From: Thalassotalea euphylliae
GTDB lineage: Bacteria; Pseudomonadota; Gammaproteobacteria; Enterobacterales; Alteromonadaceae
NCBI RefSeq assembly: GCF_003390395.1
Contig: NZ_QUOV01000001.1
Span: 1,054,001 to 1,118,000, forward strand
Reading direction: 5' to 3'
Length of the DNA: 64,000 nt
Made by a program: the position numbers and the translations under genes. The notes under the pieces were generated by a model. It had not been told where the DNA came from. It saw only the letters and a list, made by a program, of their open reading frames with translations, and made no database searches. Shown here one piece after another: positions 4,266 to 42,648 of the stretch. The first letter of the stretch is position 1. Each line of letters opens with the position of its first letter.

Positions 4266-4341
<76 letters not shown>

Positions 4342-4428
4342 ACACAAAACTGTGTGCGATAAACAAGAGTTTACCTTGGCACCGAATAATCGAAATTTAA
4401 ATTAATAAATGTCCACTATTCAAAAGAG

Positions 4429-4504
4429 TGGTGCCCAGAGGCGGAATCGAACCACCGACACGGGGATTTTCAATCCCCTGCTCTACCGACTGAGCTATCT
4501 GGGC
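4429..4504 (-). tRNA. tRNA-Phe(GAA), copy 1
   Basis: A 76-nt tRNA with encoded CCA. The anticodon stem GGGGA/TCCCC closes the loop TTGAAAA, giving anticodon GAA (phenylalanine). The acceptor stem is GCCCAGA/TCTGGGC. The sequence is identical to the second copy at 4744-4819. Confidence 0.95.
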
Positions 4505-4580
4505 AATTTATTCGAAAAATTATCCGAATAATGTCTAACTTACTTAGACGTAGCAAATGCAATGCATTGGCTAGAAAGAA

Positions 4581-4656
<76 letters not shown>

Positions 4657-4743
4657 ACACAAAACTGTGTGCGATAAACATAAGTTTATCTTGGCACCGA
4701 AATATCGAAACTTATGATTGTAAATATTCGCTATTTCAAAATA

Positions 4744-4819
4744 TGGTGCCCAGAGGCGGAATCGAACCACCGACACGGGGATTTTCAATCCCCTGCTCTA
4801 CCGACTGAGCTATCTGGGC
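4744..4819 (-). tRNA. tRNA-Phe(GAA), copy 2
   Basis: Identical to the tRNA-Phe at 4429-4504, with encoded CCA and anticodon GAA. It is the first intact tRNA behind the operon promoter. Confidence 0.95.
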
Positions 4820-30395: not shown

Positions 30396-31652
30396 ATGCT
30401 GACTCGGGATATGAATATTGCTGATTTCGATGCGGAATTGTGGCAGTCAATGCAAGATGAAGTAGCACGCCAAGAAGCTCACATCGAATTAATTGCCTCA
30501 GAGAACTACACCAGCCCACGTGTACTTGAAGCGCAAGGTTCACAACTAACTAATAAGTATGCCGAAGGCTACCCAGGTAAGCGTTACTACGGTGGTTGTG
30601 AGCATGTTGATAAAGCAGAGCAATTAGCGATTGAGCGTGCTAAAGAATTATTTGGTGCAGATTACGCGAACGTGCAGCCACACGCTGGTTCACAAGCTAA
30701 CGCTGCGGTATTCCAAGCATTAGTGACACCAGGCGCTAAAGTGTTAGGTATGAGCTTGGCTCACGGTGGTCACTTAACTCACGGCTCACACGTTAATTTC
30801 TCTGGTAAATTATACGAAGCAATTCAATACGGTTTACATCCAGAAACTGGTGATATCGATTACGAAGAAGTTGAGCGTTTAGCGCTTGAGCACAAGCCTG
30901 AGATGATCATCGGTGGTTTCTCAGCATTCTCTGGTGTTGTTGATTGGGCTCGCATGCGTGAGATCGCTGATAAAGTAGATGCTTACTTTATGGTCGATAT
31001 GGCACATGTTGCCGGTCTTGTTGCTGCTGGCTTGTATCCAAACCCAGTACCACATGCCCATGTTGTTACAACAACTACTCACAAAACACTTGCGGGCCCG
31101 CGCGGTGGCTTGATTGTTTCTGGTTGTGGTGACGAAGACGTATACAAAAAACTAAACTCTGCGGTATTCCCAGGCGGCCAAGGCGGTCCATTAATGCACG
31201 TGATTGCTGCAAAAGCTGTAGCATTTAAAGAAGCATTACAGCCTGAGTTTAAAGCATACCAACAAGGTGTTTTAGATAACGCCAAAGCGATGGTATCTGT
31301 ACTTCAAGAACGCGGTTACAAAGTTGTGTCAAATGGTACAGAAAACCACTTATTGTTGTTAGATCTTATCGATAAAGATATCACTGGTAAGGATGCTGAC
31401 GCAGCCTTAGGTCGTGCACATATCACAGTAAATAAAAACTCTGTGCCAAACGATCCTCGCTCACCGTTTGTTACTTCTGGTTTACGTTTAGGTACACCAG
31501 CTATTACGCGCCGTGGTTTTGGTGTTGAAGAGACTAAGCAGTTAACGGGTTGGATTTGCGATATTTTAGATGATATTGAAAACGAAGACGTTAACACTAA
31601 AGTTCGTGAACAAGTTCAAGAAATTTGTTCACGCTTCCCTGTATATGCGTAA
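30396..31652 (+). CDS. glyA: Serine hydroxymethyltransferase
   Basis: A 418-residue PLP enzyme that interconverts serine and glycine with tetrahydrofolate, the main one-carbon source. The PLP lysine is K230 in [15 protein letters not shown]. Other family marks are [28 protein letters not shown] and [20 protein letters not shown]. Length matches E. coli GlyA (417). A TTCG-loop terminator follows at 31736. Confidence 0.98.
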
Positions 31653-31735
31653 AGTATATACCTAAGCTCAATGAGTAAGGTATATGAGTAAGATATAGAC
31701 AAAACGCGATACTAATTGCGTTAAAAACTTATTTG

Positions 31736-31762
31736 AAAAGGTCACTTCGGTGGCCTTTTTTA
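31736..31762 (+). terminator. Intrinsic terminator after glyA
   Basis: AAAAGGTCAC-TTCG-GTGGCCTTTT: a 10-bp stem with one G-U pair, a stable UUCG tetraloop and a T run. Confidence 0.9.
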
Positions 31763-31819
31763 TTGCCAAAAATTTTTGTTGCCTTTTTGTTGCCTAAAGT
31801 ATGGTGCCAAATAAGAGGG

Positions 31820-31837
31820 TGTAATTATATGTGTACA
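31820..31837. promoter_or_regulatory. TyrR-like box, upstream (weaker)
   Basis: TGTAAT-N6-TGTACA matches the TyrR consensus TGTAAA-N6-TTTACA at 10 of 12 positions and keeps the key G-N14-C pair. It lies 5 bp upstream of a stronger box, so the centres are 23 bp apart, about two helical turns. Confidence 0.65.
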
Positions 31838-31842
31838 TTTGC

Positions 31843-31860
31843 TGAAAATAAAACTTTACA
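31843..31860. promoter_or_regulatory. TyrR-like box, strong, overlapping the -35
   Basis: TGAAAA-N6-TTTACA matches the TyrR consensus at 11 of 12 positions with the essential G and C in place. Its right half TTTACA is also the -35 hexamer of the aroF promoter, so binding would block RNA polymerase. Confidence 0.7.
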
Positions 31861-31883
31861 ACTGTAACGGTGCTGGCTATCAT
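31855..31883 (+). promoter_or_regulatory. Sigma-70 promoter of the aroF-tyrA operon
   Basis: -35 TTTACA (31855-31860), a 17-bp spacer and -10 TATCAT (31878-31883); each hexamer differs from consensus by one base. It predicts a transcript start near 31890 and a leader of about 280 nt before aroF. Confidence 0.7.
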
Positions 31884-32021
31884 GGCCTCAAATTAGCTTA
31901 GGCTAGCAGTAACTTAAACAGTGAAATTATTATTTCGTTGCGCAGTTCTTTGTAAGCCAAGACACTATTCAATTTGGTTTAAAGCCAAACAGACCAACTG
32001 AACATACTGAGCACTATTGAA

Positions 32022-32078
32022 ATGTTAAAAAGTTATCGATATTACCGCTCTACCTCTTTTTGTAAGGTAAGCGTTTAA
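32022..32078 (+). CDS. Tyr-rich leader peptide of aroF-tyrA
   Basis: A short frame ATG...TAA encodes the 18-residue peptide MLKSYRYYRSTSFCKVSV, with three Tyr codons within four positions (Y5, Y7, Y8), plus a Phe. It lies in the leader of a tyrosine-biosynthesis operon and is followed 6 bp later by a possible terminator hairpin. That is the design of ribosome-mediated attenuation. The ribosome binding site is weak (GAG), and translation is not proven. Confidence 0.55.
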   Translation: MLKSYRYYRSTSFCKVSV

Positions 32079-32120
32079 ACACCAAAGCCCGCAATTTAGG
32101 CTTTTTAACGCGTCGCTTAC
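32051..32120 (+). promoter_or_regulatory. Candidate attenuator structures before aroF
   Basis: Three pairings are visible. TACCT (32051-32055) with AGGTA (32065-32069) sits inside the leader peptide just after the Tyr codons. AAAGCC (32084-32089) with GGCTTT (32099-32104), followed by further T, is terminator-like. GTAAGCG (32067-32073) with CGCTTAC (32114-32120) would enclose the latter. The first and third compete for the same strand, so ribosome position could switch the fold. The T run after the terminator stem is short. Confidence 0.45.
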
Positions 32121-32173
32121 TGACACCTTTACTCTATAATTTATTTTAATTAACGACTTCACTGGAAACGATT

Positions 32174-33256
32174 ATGGGCACACAACCACATGTAAAGACC
32201 TTGAACGACATTCACGTTAATGCCGAAGAGGTATTGATCACACCTGAACAATTGCGCGACGAGCTGCCGCTAAGTGAAGAGGGGCGTGAATTTGTCAAAG
32301 CTTCGCGCCGTACCATTTCAAACATTATTCACAAGAAAGACCATCGCTTATTAGTGATCAGTGGTCCATGTTCAATTCACGACATTGAAGCGGCGAAAGA
32401 GTACGCCCGTAATTTAAAAGCAATGCATGACAAGTACCAAGACAGCTTGTTTGTTGTGATGCGTGTTTACTTTGAAAAGCCAAGAACAACTGTTGGCTGG
32501 AAAGGGTTAATTAACGACCCACATATGGATGGCTCATTTGATGTCGAAACTGGCCTACGCAAAGCTCGTGAGTTACTGCTCTACTTAACAGAGCTTGGCT
32601 TACCACTCGCAACAGAGGCGCTAGACCCAATTAGCCCACAATACCTAGCGGAGCTATTTAGCTGGTCAGCCATTGGTGCGCGTACTACCGAATCTCAAAC
32701 TCACCGTGAAATGGCCAGTGGTTTATCTATGCCGATCGGCTTTAAAAATGGTACCAATGGTAGCTTAGATGTTGCCATAAATGCGATGCATTCAGCGGCG
32801 TCTTCACATCGTTTTATGGGCATTAACAAGCAAGGACAAGTGGCGCTTATCAAAACTTCTGGTAACCCAGATGGTCATGTGATTTTACGTGGTGGTAAGC
32901 AACCTAACTACGATTCAGTCAATGTTGCTTTATGTGAACAAGACTTAGTGAACCAAAAACTTGAACCAGCAATCGTAGTTGATTGTAGCCACGGTAATTC
33001 AAACAAAGACTACAGCCGCCAACCATTGGTTGCAGACAATGTAGTTAACCAAATTTGTGAAGGCAACAAGTCAATTATTGGTATTATGTTAGAAAGCCAT
33101 ATCAATGCTGGCAATCAAAGCGCAAACTTACCAAAAGATGAGCTGAAATACGGTGTGTCGGTCACTGATGCTTGTATTGATTTTGCAACAACAGAGGCGT
33201 TGTTTGCGCAAGCCGATGCTAAATTAGCCGGCGTGTTAAAAGCAAGAATTGCCTAG
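32174..33256 (+). CDS. aroF: 3-deoxy-7-phosphoheptulonate (DAHP) synthase, class I
   Basis: A 360-residue AroFGH-type enzyme that condenses phosphoenolpyruvate and erythrose 4-phosphate, the first step of the shikimate pathway. Marks: VISGPCSIHD, MRVYFEKPRTTVGWKGLINDP, GARTTESQTHREMASGLSMPIGFKNGT and VVDCSHGNSNKDY (metal and substrate residues). The symbol aroF (tyrosine-sensitive isozyme) is inferred from linkage to tyrA and from the TyrR-like boxes upstream, as in E. coli aroF-tyrA. Confidence 0.93.
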   Translation: MGTQPHVKTLNDIHVNAEEVLITPEQLRDELPLSEEGREFVKASRRTISNIIHKKDHRLLVISGPCSIHDIEAAKEYARNLKAMHDKYQDSLFVVMRVYFEKPRTTVGWKGLINDPHMDGSFDVETGLRKARELLLYLTELGLPLATEALDPISPQYLAELFSWSAIGARTTESQTHREMASGLSMPIGFKNGTNGSLDVAINAMHSAASSHRFMGINKQGQVALIKTSGNPDGHVILRGGKQPNYDSVNVALCEQDLVNQKLEPAIVVDCSHGNSNKDYSRQPLVADNVVNQICEGNKSIIGIMLESHINAGNQSANLPKDELKYGVSVTDACIDFATTEALFAQADAKLAGVLKARIA

Positions 33257-33359
33257 TAGGCATACTTGCTGTTGGCAAATTCTCATATCGCCCATGCGAA
33301 GGCTAGCACGAAAACAAACGAAACAAATACGAAAAAAATAAGTTAACAACGATAAGCAT

Positions 33360-34487
33360 ATGAAAGATATCACTGAAGCGCTGGCGCAATGCCGTGCCGA
33401 AATTGATCAACTAGATAGTGAGCTAGTCCAGTTATTGGCAAAACGCCGACAGGTGACTAGTCGGGTAGGTGCGCTAAAAAGTGAAGTTGGCATGCCAATT
33501 TATGCCCCAGATCGCGAAGCGAGTTTAATTGAGCAGCGTCGCAAGCAGGCCAGTGAGCAAGGCGTAAATCCTGATCTTGTGCAAGATATCTTGCGTCGAA
33601 TTATGCAAGATTCCTATTCAAGCCAAGATGAAAGTGGCTATCGTTGTGTTAACCCTGATTGCGGTGAAGTGGTTGTTATTGGCGGTCAGGGCCAACTTGG
33701 ACGTATCTTTGTTGATTTGTTTACTCGCTCTGGTTACACAGTACACATTATTGAAAAAGATGATTGGGATCACAGTGAAGCGATTCTAGCCAAAGCTAGC
33801 TTAGTGATTGTTGCTGTGCCAATTCGCTTTACGGCGATGATTATTAAACAATTAAAGCACTTGCCTTCGTCATGCATTTTGGCTGATGTGACTAGTGTTA
33901 AAGAGTCTCCTTTGTATGAAATGTTAAACGTGCATCAGGGACCTGTTCTTGGTTTGCACCCAATGTTTGGTCCTGATGTTGGCAGTTTGATCAAGCAAAC
34001 CATTATTTCCTGTGAAGGTCGTGGCAGCGAACATTACCAATGGGTACTTGAACAATTTAAAGTGTGGGGCGCAACTATTTACCCTGTATCTGCAAATGAG
34101 CACGATCGTGCAATGGCAATGGTGCAAGTAATGCGTCACTTTTCCACAATTGCCTACGGTTACCATTTAATGACTGAAGGTGCTGATTTACAGCAACTTG
34201 TTGATATGAGCTCACCGATTTATCGCTTAGAGCTTATTATGGTGGGACGTTTGTTTGCGCAAAATCCAGAACTATACTCGGATATTATTTTCTCCAATAG
34301 CGACAACATTGCTATGATGAAGCGCTTTGCTTACCGTTTCTTAGAGTTGTTGGAAGACGTTGAAATGGGCGATAAAGAAGCTTTCGTCACAATGTTTGAC
34401 CAAGTTTCAGCTTGGTTTGGTGATTACGCGAATATATTCTTAGCTGAAAGCAAAGGCATGTTAGCTAAAGCCAATGAGATAAAATAA
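33360..34487 (+). CDS. tyrA: Bifunctional chorismate mutase/prephenate dehydrogenase TyrA
   Basis: A 375-residue fusion. Residues 1-90 form an AroQ-type chorismate mutase (IDQLDSELVQLLAKRRQVTSRVGALKSEVGMPIYAPDREASL). Residues about 100-375 form prephenate dehydrogenase with the NAD-binding VVVIGGQGQLGRIFVDLFTRSGYTV and the active-site His in GLHPMFGPDVGSL. It makes 4-hydroxyphenylpyruvate for tyrosine. It lies 103 bp after aroF with no terminator between, so the two are one operon. Length matches E. coli TyrA (373). Confidence 0.97.
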   Translation: MKDITEALAQCRAEIDQLDSELVQLLAKRRQVTSRVGALKSEVGMPIYAPDREASLIEQRRKQASEQGVNPDLVQDILRRIMQDSYSSQDESGYRCVNPDCGEVVVIGGQGQLGRIFVDLFTRSGYTVHIIEKDDWDHSEAILAKASLVIVAVPIRFTAMIIKQLKHLPSSCILADVTSVKESPLYEMLNVHQGPVLGLHPMFGPDVGSLIKQTIISCEGRGSEHYQWVLEQFKVWGATIYPVSANEHDRAMAMVQVMRHFSTIAYGYHLMTEGADLQQLVDMSSPIYRLELIMVGRLFAQNPELYSDIIFSNSDNIAMMKRFAYRFLELLEDVEMGDKEAFVTMFDQVSAWFGDYANIFLAESKGMLAKANEIK

Positions 34488-41472: not shown

Positions 41473-42648
41473 TTAGATTTCTGCAGCCGGTACGCTGGTT
41501 GGCGAAATATGTTCGATAGGGTAGCAGCCTAGCACTTTGATAAACTTAGTTAACTCAGTTAATTCACCGATAGCTTCTTGCATTGCCGCTGATTTAAGGT
41601 TGGCTTCCACATCAATATAAAACATTTCTTCCCATGGGCGACCTTGAATAGGGCGAGACTCTAATTTACACATGTTAATGCCTTTCTCTTTTAGCACTAA
41701 CAAACACTCCACCAAGGCACCTGGTTTTTGACCTGTTGCCAGAATAAAGGTCGTTTTCGCAGGAATTTGCTCAGCAACATCAACTGGCTTTCGTGCGACA
41801 AGAATAAAGCGGCTATGGTTTTCATCCTGATTGGCAATAGACTTTTCTAAGGCGTGTAACTGGTACAAGTGGCCACCTTCTTCACTGCCAATAACGGCAA
41901 CCGTTTCATCTTGTAATTCATAGACTTTTGCCATCGCATCGGCTGTGCTATCGCAATATTCAATACGAATGTCGTGTTGCTTGTCTAAGAAATTACTGCA
42001 CTGTGTAAATGGTTGACCGTGTGCGTAGATGGTTTTGATATTCTCTAAACGAGTATTAACCGCTGTTAGCAAGCAATGCTCAATGGGTTGTGTGATTTCG
42101 CCAACAATTGCAAGGTTAGTATGTTGCAGCAGATCGTAAACCTCATTGATACTACCTGAGCTTGTATTTTCAATGGGTAGCATGCCGTAATCAACGTGGC
42201 CAGCTTCAACCTGTTGCATAATATCAGCAAAGCTTTGACAGCCTGATTCAATAATTTTTTCCGCGCGGCGTGAGAAGTAACGGTGACTAGCAAGGTAGCT
42301 GTATGAACCCTTGTTGCCTAAGAAGGCCACGCTGACCATCGGCAATTGTAAGTTAGGGTTGGTGAGAGTTTGTAGGTATGCCTGCTGGTTAAGCACTGAA
42401 TCTTCAATAATGGTTTGGAACACGCTGGTCACGTAGTGGGCATCCAACCCTAATTCTTTACCTTGTTTGATCAAGCGAATCAGCAATTCTTGCTCACGCT
42501 GTTGATCACGTACTGGACGCACCTGATGTGCTTTACTTTTGGCAACATTGAGTGTGAGCGAACGGCGCTTGGCAAAGAGCTTGAGCAATTGCTGGTCGGT
42601 TTCTGTAATTTGTGCTCTTATTTCGTTTAGGTCTAATGATTGCTCCAC
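41473..42648 (-). CDS. pheA: Bifunctional chorismate mutase/prephenate dehydratase PheA
   Basis: A 391-residue fusion: an AroQ chorismate mutase (residues 1-95, IRAQITETDQQLLKLFAKRRSLTLNVAKSK), prephenate dehydratase (about 105-285, VAFLGNKGSYSYLASHRYF, GMLPIENTSSGSINEVYDLL) and a C-terminal ACT domain with the Phe-binding GALVECLLVL and ESRP motifs. The usual TRF catalytic motif reads SRF (HSRFILV). It makes phenylpyruvate. The start codon is a GTG or a nearby ATG after AAAGGAG. A Phe-rich leader peptide and terminator precede it. Confidence 0.96.
   Translation of the reverse strand: MEQSLDLNEIRAQITETDQQLLKLFAKRRSLTLNVAKSKAHQVRPVRDQQREQELLIRLIKQGKELGLDAHYVTSVFQTIIEDSVLNQQAYLQTLTNPNLQLPMVSVAFLGNKGSYSYLASHRYFSRRAEKIIESGCQSFADIMQQVEAGHVDYGMLPIENTSSGSINEVYDLLQHTNLAIVGEITQPIEHCLLTAVNTRLENIKTIYAHGQPFTQCSNFLDKQHDIRIEYCDSTADAMAKVYELQDETVAVIGSEEGGHLYQLHALEKSIANQDENHSRFILVARKPVDVAEQIPAKTTFILATGQKPGALVECLLVLKEKGINMCKLESRPIQGRPWEEMFYIDVEANLKSAAMQEAIGELTELTKFIKVLGCYPIEHISPTSVPAAEI

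Follow-up and report, generated by a model that had tools for sequence, protein, structure and literature searches.

The aroF-tyrA operon of Thalassotalea euphylliae is preceded by a short reading frame with three tyrosine codons, and comparison across related genera strongly supports this frame as a tyrosine-codon leader peptide of the operon. The leader very probably acts in tyrosine sensing, and a ribosome-mediated tyrosine sensor, in which a stalled ribosome controls aroF-tyrA, is the probable explanation of the arrangement as a whole. In the window, the whole stretch of 64,000 nucleotides that was analysed, the leader and the operon comprise the following features:

32022-32078, plus strand: leader peptide reading frame, MLKSYRYYRSTSFCKVSV, 18 amino acids and a stop codon; relatives keep the frame, the start, the stop and the Tyr codons
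32034-32045, plus strand: putative regulatory codons Tyr-Arg(CGA)-Tyr-Tyr; RYY occurs in 50 of 64 curated leaders
32174-33256, plus strand: aroF (DAHP synthase), NCBIfam NF009395, 554.6 bits
33360-34487, plus strand: tyrA (chorismate mutase/prephenate dehydrogenase), NCBIfam NF008400, 565.5 bits

The leader reads ATG TTA AAA AGT TAT CGA TAT TAC CGC TCT ACC TCT TTT TGT AAG GTA AGC GTT TAA, with its start codon at 32022, its Tyr codons at 32034, 32040 and 32043, and its stop codon at 32076-32078; 152 nt separate the leader start from the aroF ATG (32174). Re-reading of the window confirms the 18-codon frame of the first-pass annotation, with Tyr at codons 5, 7 and 8, and the NCBIfam profiles bear out its gene names aroF and tyrA.

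The related loci, termed the in-group, comprise 96 AroF loci in 18 genera (handles such as g1, the genus of the window), out of 102 genomes with an AroF match at E <= 1e-185 and without genomes G142, G075, G270, G362, G369, and G337. These 102 genomes come from a sample of 395, drawn evenly from a larger group; further AroF relatives came from named contigs, as the best 80 of at least 592 loci. Loci L005 and L167 (g76) are both Thalassotalea sp. ND16A, and L007 and L181 (g62) are both Colwellia psychrerythraea GAB14E. Leaders were curated by a scoring rule with four hand exclusions (L155, L172, L178, L179) and two additions (L096, L125). By eye, the Tyr codons are still present in L155, though that frame lacks any ATG, GTG or TTG. 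The weakest curated leaders are L091, L158, and the four TTG-started leaders of g14.

By this curation, a Tyr-rich leader precedes aroF in 64 of the 96 loci and in 15 of the 18 genera, as in MYDLQYRYYYLPYFS, MQIQNLNLRYYRYTYLYY, MFNHKTRYYYYLPFFC, MILNKFSFYYFWSFYC, and MLTFSYRYYRLYSFFK. The start codons are ATG in 55 leaders, GTG in five, and TTG in four, and tyrosine makes up 27.7% of their 990 residues, compared with 2.7% in six genes of the window. A frame test for an ATG or GTG start with three Tyr in four codons, or with RYY or YRY, finds such frames upstream of 57 of 95 in-group loci, where dinucleotide shuffles predict 1.27. The corresponding outgroup count is 3 of 85 against 1.25 expected, in a set that holds the in-group locus L096, which is one of the three positives, and the duplicate pairs L014/L104 and L019/L106. 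The test was run without L001-L010, nine of which share their upstream DNA with another locus; the one that does not, L006 (Colwellia maritima), has no RYY leader and carries another Tyr-bearing frame, MLYYSY..., at -261. Furthermore, L139 differs from L132 by exactly one additional whole Tyr codon. Conservation of the Tyr codons, the start, and the stop, which the first-pass annotation had named as evidence in favour, is thus borne out over 15 genera.

The conserved CGATATTA block could in principle be a DNA or RNA site for a protein, with the reading frame incidental. Constraint at the nucleotide level agrees with such a site, since the Arg before the Tyr pair (window 32037-32039) is CGA in 49 of 50 RYY leaders, and CGA is used for 15 of 149 Arg codons in six genes of the window. 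Likewise, no third-position bias exists over the whole leader, where variation per codon position is 155/312/320 in g8 and 160/134/157 in g76. The frame itself argues the other way. The core string CGATATTAY is found in 49 of the 96 loci, and among these the Tyr frame is open to an ATG or GTG in 45, compared with two and three in the other frames and with 9.0 open Tyr frames expected from shuffled upstream DNA. Tyr runs also survive where the CGATAT string is lost (FYYFWSFYC in g22, FYYYLPFYC in g63, QYYFYYPFFS in g65). A protein-binding site alone is therefore very improbable, and the CGA preference may reflect either a nucleotide-level or a slow-codon constraint on the leader. Because third positions are no more variable than the others, the whole peptide does not appear to be under ordinary protein constraint; the parts that are kept are the frame, the Tyr or aromatic codons, and the stop region.

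The leader is not universal. No curated leader was found in g62 (23 loci), g64 (two loci), or g70 (two loci), nor in 5 of the 69 loci of the 15 leader-bearing genera, and the leader is therefore dispensable. Conservation of the Tyr codons and frame, which the first-pass annotation had made decisive, thus holds in 15 genera, with three related genera lacking the leader. Some g62 loci (e.g., L187 and L188) hold ATGTTTAATCTGTTTATTTAG, which resembles a leader remnant without Tyr codons. In L149 (g22), inspection by eye suggests a decayed leader, in which the start and the Tyr codons are gone and a hairpin of the stop-codon type is still there. Outside the group, Alteromonas sp. a30 (L041) carries MKNRESYRCPPYYHYYW 145 nt before aroF, possibly a Tyr leader and possibly a chance frame. 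Genome-wide, the leader motif has 18 matches with at most one mismatch, compared with seven for the reversed control, and loci are given for 8 of the 18; the sole other exact match in the genome lies at L192, a locus occupied mostly by one 910-aa reading frame.

At the end of the leader, a hairpin (H1) encloses the stop codon:

32066-32073, plus strand: H1 5' arm, GGUAAGCG; from the fold of the window, co-adapted across genera
32114-32121, plus strand: H1 3' arm, CGCUUACU; from the fold of the window, co-adapted across genera

The H1 5' arm contains the leader stop codon, and, counted from the leader end, the hairpin usually extends from about -10..-4 to +10..+15; in the window, a loop region of 40 nt lies between the arms. 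The segment 32060-32125 folds at -17.1 kcal/mol, and 10 of 200 shuffles fold as well. The arm pairs vary by genus (GTAAGC/GCTTAC, GCTAG/CTAGC, GCTAAAC/GTTTAGC, TACTAAGC/GCTTGGTA, and TGGTAA/TTACCA). In the folding comparison, the own 3' side of H1 does better than those of other genera in 15 of 15 genus means; g1 is marginal, its loci L081-L083 having been scored with too short a loop and so counting against H1. By duplex energy, for which the insertion in these loci was allowed, the own arms are better than swapped ones in 14 of 15 genera, and g72 fails. In consensus folds of nine groups, most show a hairpin where the leader ends, g76b being an exception; H1 is hardly formed in L120, L131, L152, and L169, and many g8 loci have a second hairpin after H1 that other groups do not share. 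By these comparisons, the arms of H1 are co-adapted across genera, and H1 is the sole such structure in the leader: of twelve further pairings among segments of the leader, the RNA downstream, and the ribosome site of aroF, none does better than swapped controls in more than 9 of 15 genera (range 2-9). Taken as a whole, the leader RNA (32022-32185) does not fold more stably than shuffled sequence, with z at 0.53 and 143 of 200 shuffles equally good.

Another reading is nascent-peptide arrest of the TnaC type, with a conserved tail such as LPYF(S) stalling the ribosome and tyrosine perhaps serving as the ligand. In its favour, tails are alike within genera (YYYLPYFS, TYLYY/W, PFFC), and a hairpin encloses the stop codon. 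However, they vary among genera, and two g26 leaders (L112 and L119) stop directly after the Tyr codons, the hairpin staying at its old place. Induction triggered by tyrosine would moreover have the wrong sign for a biosynthetic operon, which leaves peptide arrest a slim prospect.

The first-pass annotation had described competing stems and a terminator-like hairpin, and both can be located in the window:

32046-32073, plus strand: competing hairpin CGCUcUACCU/AGGUAAGCG; own arms outdo swapped ones in 5 of 15 genera
32084-32106, plus strand: inner hairpin with T5, the proposed terminator, inside the long H1 loop; present in 2 of 96 loci

These two elements are the basis for classical transcription attenuation, in which an intrinsic terminator would be formed by H1 or by the inner hairpin and its T-run, and the upstream stem would be the antiterminator. 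The stems are drawable in the window, as 32046-32055/32065-32073 against 32066-32073/32114-32121, and the upstream competitor exceeds swapped controls in five of 15 genera, namely g1, where it does so clearly, g76, g4, g13, and g9 (a tie at printed precision); it fails in the other ten. The proposed terminator (32084-32089/32099-32104, with T5 at 32102-32106) proves weak, at -4.8 kcal/mol with 26 of 200 shuffles as good. It is not a conserved feature either: the string with its T-run occurs only in L081, the genome of the window, and L082 (99% AroF identity), and in L083 (98% AroF identity) the inner stem is altered and the T-run absent. A scan of 31500-32600 for intrinsic terminators returned none (1.1 expected). 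After the leader-end hairpin, a T-tract of at least six T in nine is found in 12 of 54 loci, including g58 (L111 and L125), four g26 loci, and L146, and is missing from 42; this count leaves out 10 of the 64 leader loci, which have no leader-end hairpin by the rule of the script, and for L088, L118, L161, and L092 it uses a hairpin longer than H1. Co-adaptation across genera is confined to H1, and the antiterminator/terminator pair is not conserved. Classical attenuation is accordingly unlikely, and of the tyrosine attenuator first proposed for aroF-tyrA, the Tyr-codon leader is strongly supported and the classical switch is not.

The window offers an internal comparison at pheA, which does show a strong stem followed by T9:

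41473-42648, minus strand: pheA
42862-42761, minus strand: pheA leader peptide, 33 aa ending RFFSLFFILSR
42730-42702, minus strand: stem and then nine T in the pheA leader, resembling a classical attenuator

This pheA leader scores 35.1 bits against the Rfam Phe_leader model, below the gathering score of 55. The pheL Phe leader (Rfam RF01859) is similar to the aroF leader in being short, rich in the amino acid of its own pathway, and directly before a biosynthetic gene. Unlike the pheA leader of the window, the aroF leader carries Tyr codons; no terminator is conserved in it, and it does not match Phe_leader. No described leader family (Phe_leader, T-box, or others) reaches its gathering score in the Rfam search of the whole window, and a scan of 31600-33500 gave six weak matches up to E 5, none of a leader or T-box family. 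Elsewhere in the window, the minus strand carries an Rfam isrC match at 1067-1190 (44 bits, gathering 39), the identity of which is doubtful in this organism, and a tandem duplication of a tRNA-Thr(TGT)/tRNA-Phe(GAA) pair at 4266-4819.

Control might alternatively be exerted on translation, with the leader RNA masking the ribosome site of aroF except when a ribosome is stalled at the Tyr codons. In many g8 loci, the minimum-energy fold does pair the Tyr-codon region with the aroF Shine-Dalgarno sequence and start, and the own pairing exceeds the mean of other genera in all five g26 loci and in 8 of 13 g76 loci. Over the full set, however, it exceeds the mean for the ribosome sites of other genera in 27 of 62 loci and 5 of 15 genera, and within g8 it exceeds the swapped mean in only 5 of 17 loci. 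The modelled openness of the ribosome site is nearly flat, at 0.54 for free RNA, 0.57 with the ribosome stalled at Tyr, and 0.53 with the ribosome at the stop codon; stalling gives the more open site of the latter two states in 40 of 64 loci and in 9 of 15 genera. Translational masking is thus improbable. The idea that the Tyr-codon region pairs directly with the aroF start was set aside, as swapped partners do equally well.

Upstream of the leader lie elements of a TyrR-type promoter:

31820-31837, plus strand: TyrR-like box 1, TGTAATTATATGTGTACA, 2 mismatches of 12
31843-31860, plus strand: TyrR-like box 2, TGAAAATAAAACTTTACA, 1 mismatch of 12
31855-31883, plus strand: candidate sigma-70 promoter TTTACA-17-TATCAT, called from a consensus match only, with its -35 within box 2

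Boxes were scored as up to three mismatches to TGTAAAN6TTTACA, which is taken here to be the TyrR box consensus. At least one is present in 84 of the 96 loci, with 17.9 expected from mononucleotide shuffles, and two boxes 23 bp apart occur in 71; promoter consensus sites in the scanned region number five, with 2.6 expected. In 51 of the 64 leader loci, the leader start is preceded by a box. Because the boxes stand upstream, the leader is probably part of the transcript, and double control of the operon, by TyrR and by translation of the leader as the first-pass annotation had suggested, is supported as likely from these sites. The two elements do not always occur together. In g62, boxes are found in 23 of 23 loci and the leader is missing. 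No recognisable box was detected in 11 of 13 g76 loci or in the sole g2 locus (L092), and extension of the search to 1200 nt in L003, L005, and L092 returned none. The remaining g76 loci are L180, with weak boxes 23 bp apart, and L162, with one box at -63, downstream of the leader; each of the 14 g76 genomes searched encodes a protein with a TyrR-type domain. A TATAAT at 32135-32140, which the first-pass annotation had noted as a possible start past the leader, has by eye no good -35, and g8, g22, and g76 show nothing that clearly corresponds to it. Since strings resembling it are found past H1 in several genera (g1, g9, g26, g28, and g58, by eye and unscored), a second promoter past the leader may exist and bypass leader control.

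In most leader-bearing genera, the RNA beyond H1 is rich in C and poor in G:

32121-32160, plus strand: C-bearing, G-poor stretch reaching from H1 to the ribosome site of aroF, a possible loading region for Rho, called from composition only

Over a longer segment, which begins 36 nt ahead of the leader end and runs to the ribosome site of aroF, the C content is 1.5 times that of G or higher in 63 of the 69 loci from the 15 genera with leaders (five of the 69 have no curated leader), compared with 3 of 27 loci from the three genera without leaders and 5 of 84 loci of the outgroup; in loci without a leader, a fixed interval of -130 to -14 was used. Beyond H1 alone, genus means of C/G are 1.3-9.0 with leaders and 0.8-1.2 without them. 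In the longer segment, exceptions to the composition exist on both sides, with C/G at 1.12 in g22 despite its leaders and at 1.41 in g64 without leaders. Such C-rich, G-poor RNA hints at a loading region for Rho.

In the proposed tyrosine sensor, transcription would start at the TyrR-type promoter and the leader frame would then be translated. When Tyr-tRNA is short, the ribosome would stall on the Tyr codons and aroF-tyrA would be expressed; when it is plentiful, the ribosome would reach the stop codon inside H1, melt H1, and leave, and expression would fall. The readout would be premature transcription termination. Its most likely agent would be Rho, since intrinsic terminators and antiterminators are not conserved and since a ribosome stalled on the leader would shield part of the beginning of the unstructured, pyrimidine-rich RNA on which Rho would load, just past the Tyr codons. 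Readout through Rho is nevertheless put forward tentatively, as a possibility rather than a probability. If H1 acted as a terminator, the position of the stop codon in the 5' arm would have it blocked at plentiful tyrosine, which has the wrong sign; H1 is therefore tentatively taken as a pacing or pause element for RNA polymerase or the ribosome, although the Rho model leaves H1 unexplained.

Leader-peptide attenuators are textbook systems for Trp, Phe, His, Thr, Leu, and Ilv. No attenuator with tyrosine codons was recognised in the literature searched, from which subscription papers were mostly absent, making this weak evidence of novelty. TnaC is a stalling leader of the tryptophan type that is linked to Rho. 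T-boxes bind uncharged tRNA directly, without a leader peptide; a tyrosine T-box thus shares with the present proposal control at the RNA level by Tyr-tRNA and differs in how the tRNA is read. Tyr T-boxes are mentioned in part of PMC1262725. The Rho-linked leaders of the tna type (TnaC, and toiL as described in passages of PMC12121999) share with the aroF proposal a stalled leader ribosome that controls downstream expression with Rho involved, but are triggered by tryptophan or antibiotics and not by tRNA shortage. A likeness in conserved features is also found in the mycobacterial cys operons, whose Cys-codon leaders are conserved peptides without conserved terminator hairpins, with Rho suggested as the readout; they differ in sensing cysteine, and the relevant passages mention no stop-codon hairpin (PMC1262725).

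Leaders before aroF itself have been described elsewhere. In Corynebacterium glutamicum, AroR is a leader peptide before the DAHP synthase gene, as in the aroF leader here, but it has a Phe-Tyr-Phe motif and responds to Phe, and Tyr availability is without effect, according to the sections of PMC11802643 concerned. The uORFC-13-1 motif of Acholeplasma likewise places an upstream reading frame before aroF; unlike the present leader, it contains one or more Phe codons and has a terminator stem beside it, and it belongs to another phylum (PMC8632094, in part). The same source states that attenuation had been hypothesised for aroF in E. coli. In passages of PMC5343134, aroF-tyrA is regulated by TyrR, or by TrpR in Shewanellaceae, and trp and pheA by attenuation; those passages mention no attenuation for aroF.

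Taken together, these features can be read as a tyrosine-specific, ribosome-mediated attenuator with Tyr codons, a hairpin that swallows the stop codon, and a C-rich segment of the Rho type, lacking an antiterminator/terminator pair and trading places with TyrR between genera; in this full form, the reading is conceivable and falls somewhat short of probable. The exchange is suggested by the Colwellia-like g62, with boxes and no leader, and the Thalassotalea-like g76, with a leader and 11 of 13 loci boxless. If this is true, a repressor and a translation sensor would be stacked on one operon and apparently swapped between genera, and the aroF-tyrA leader would offer a compact case of a Tyr-stalled ribosome controlling a gene without a classical hairpin switch.
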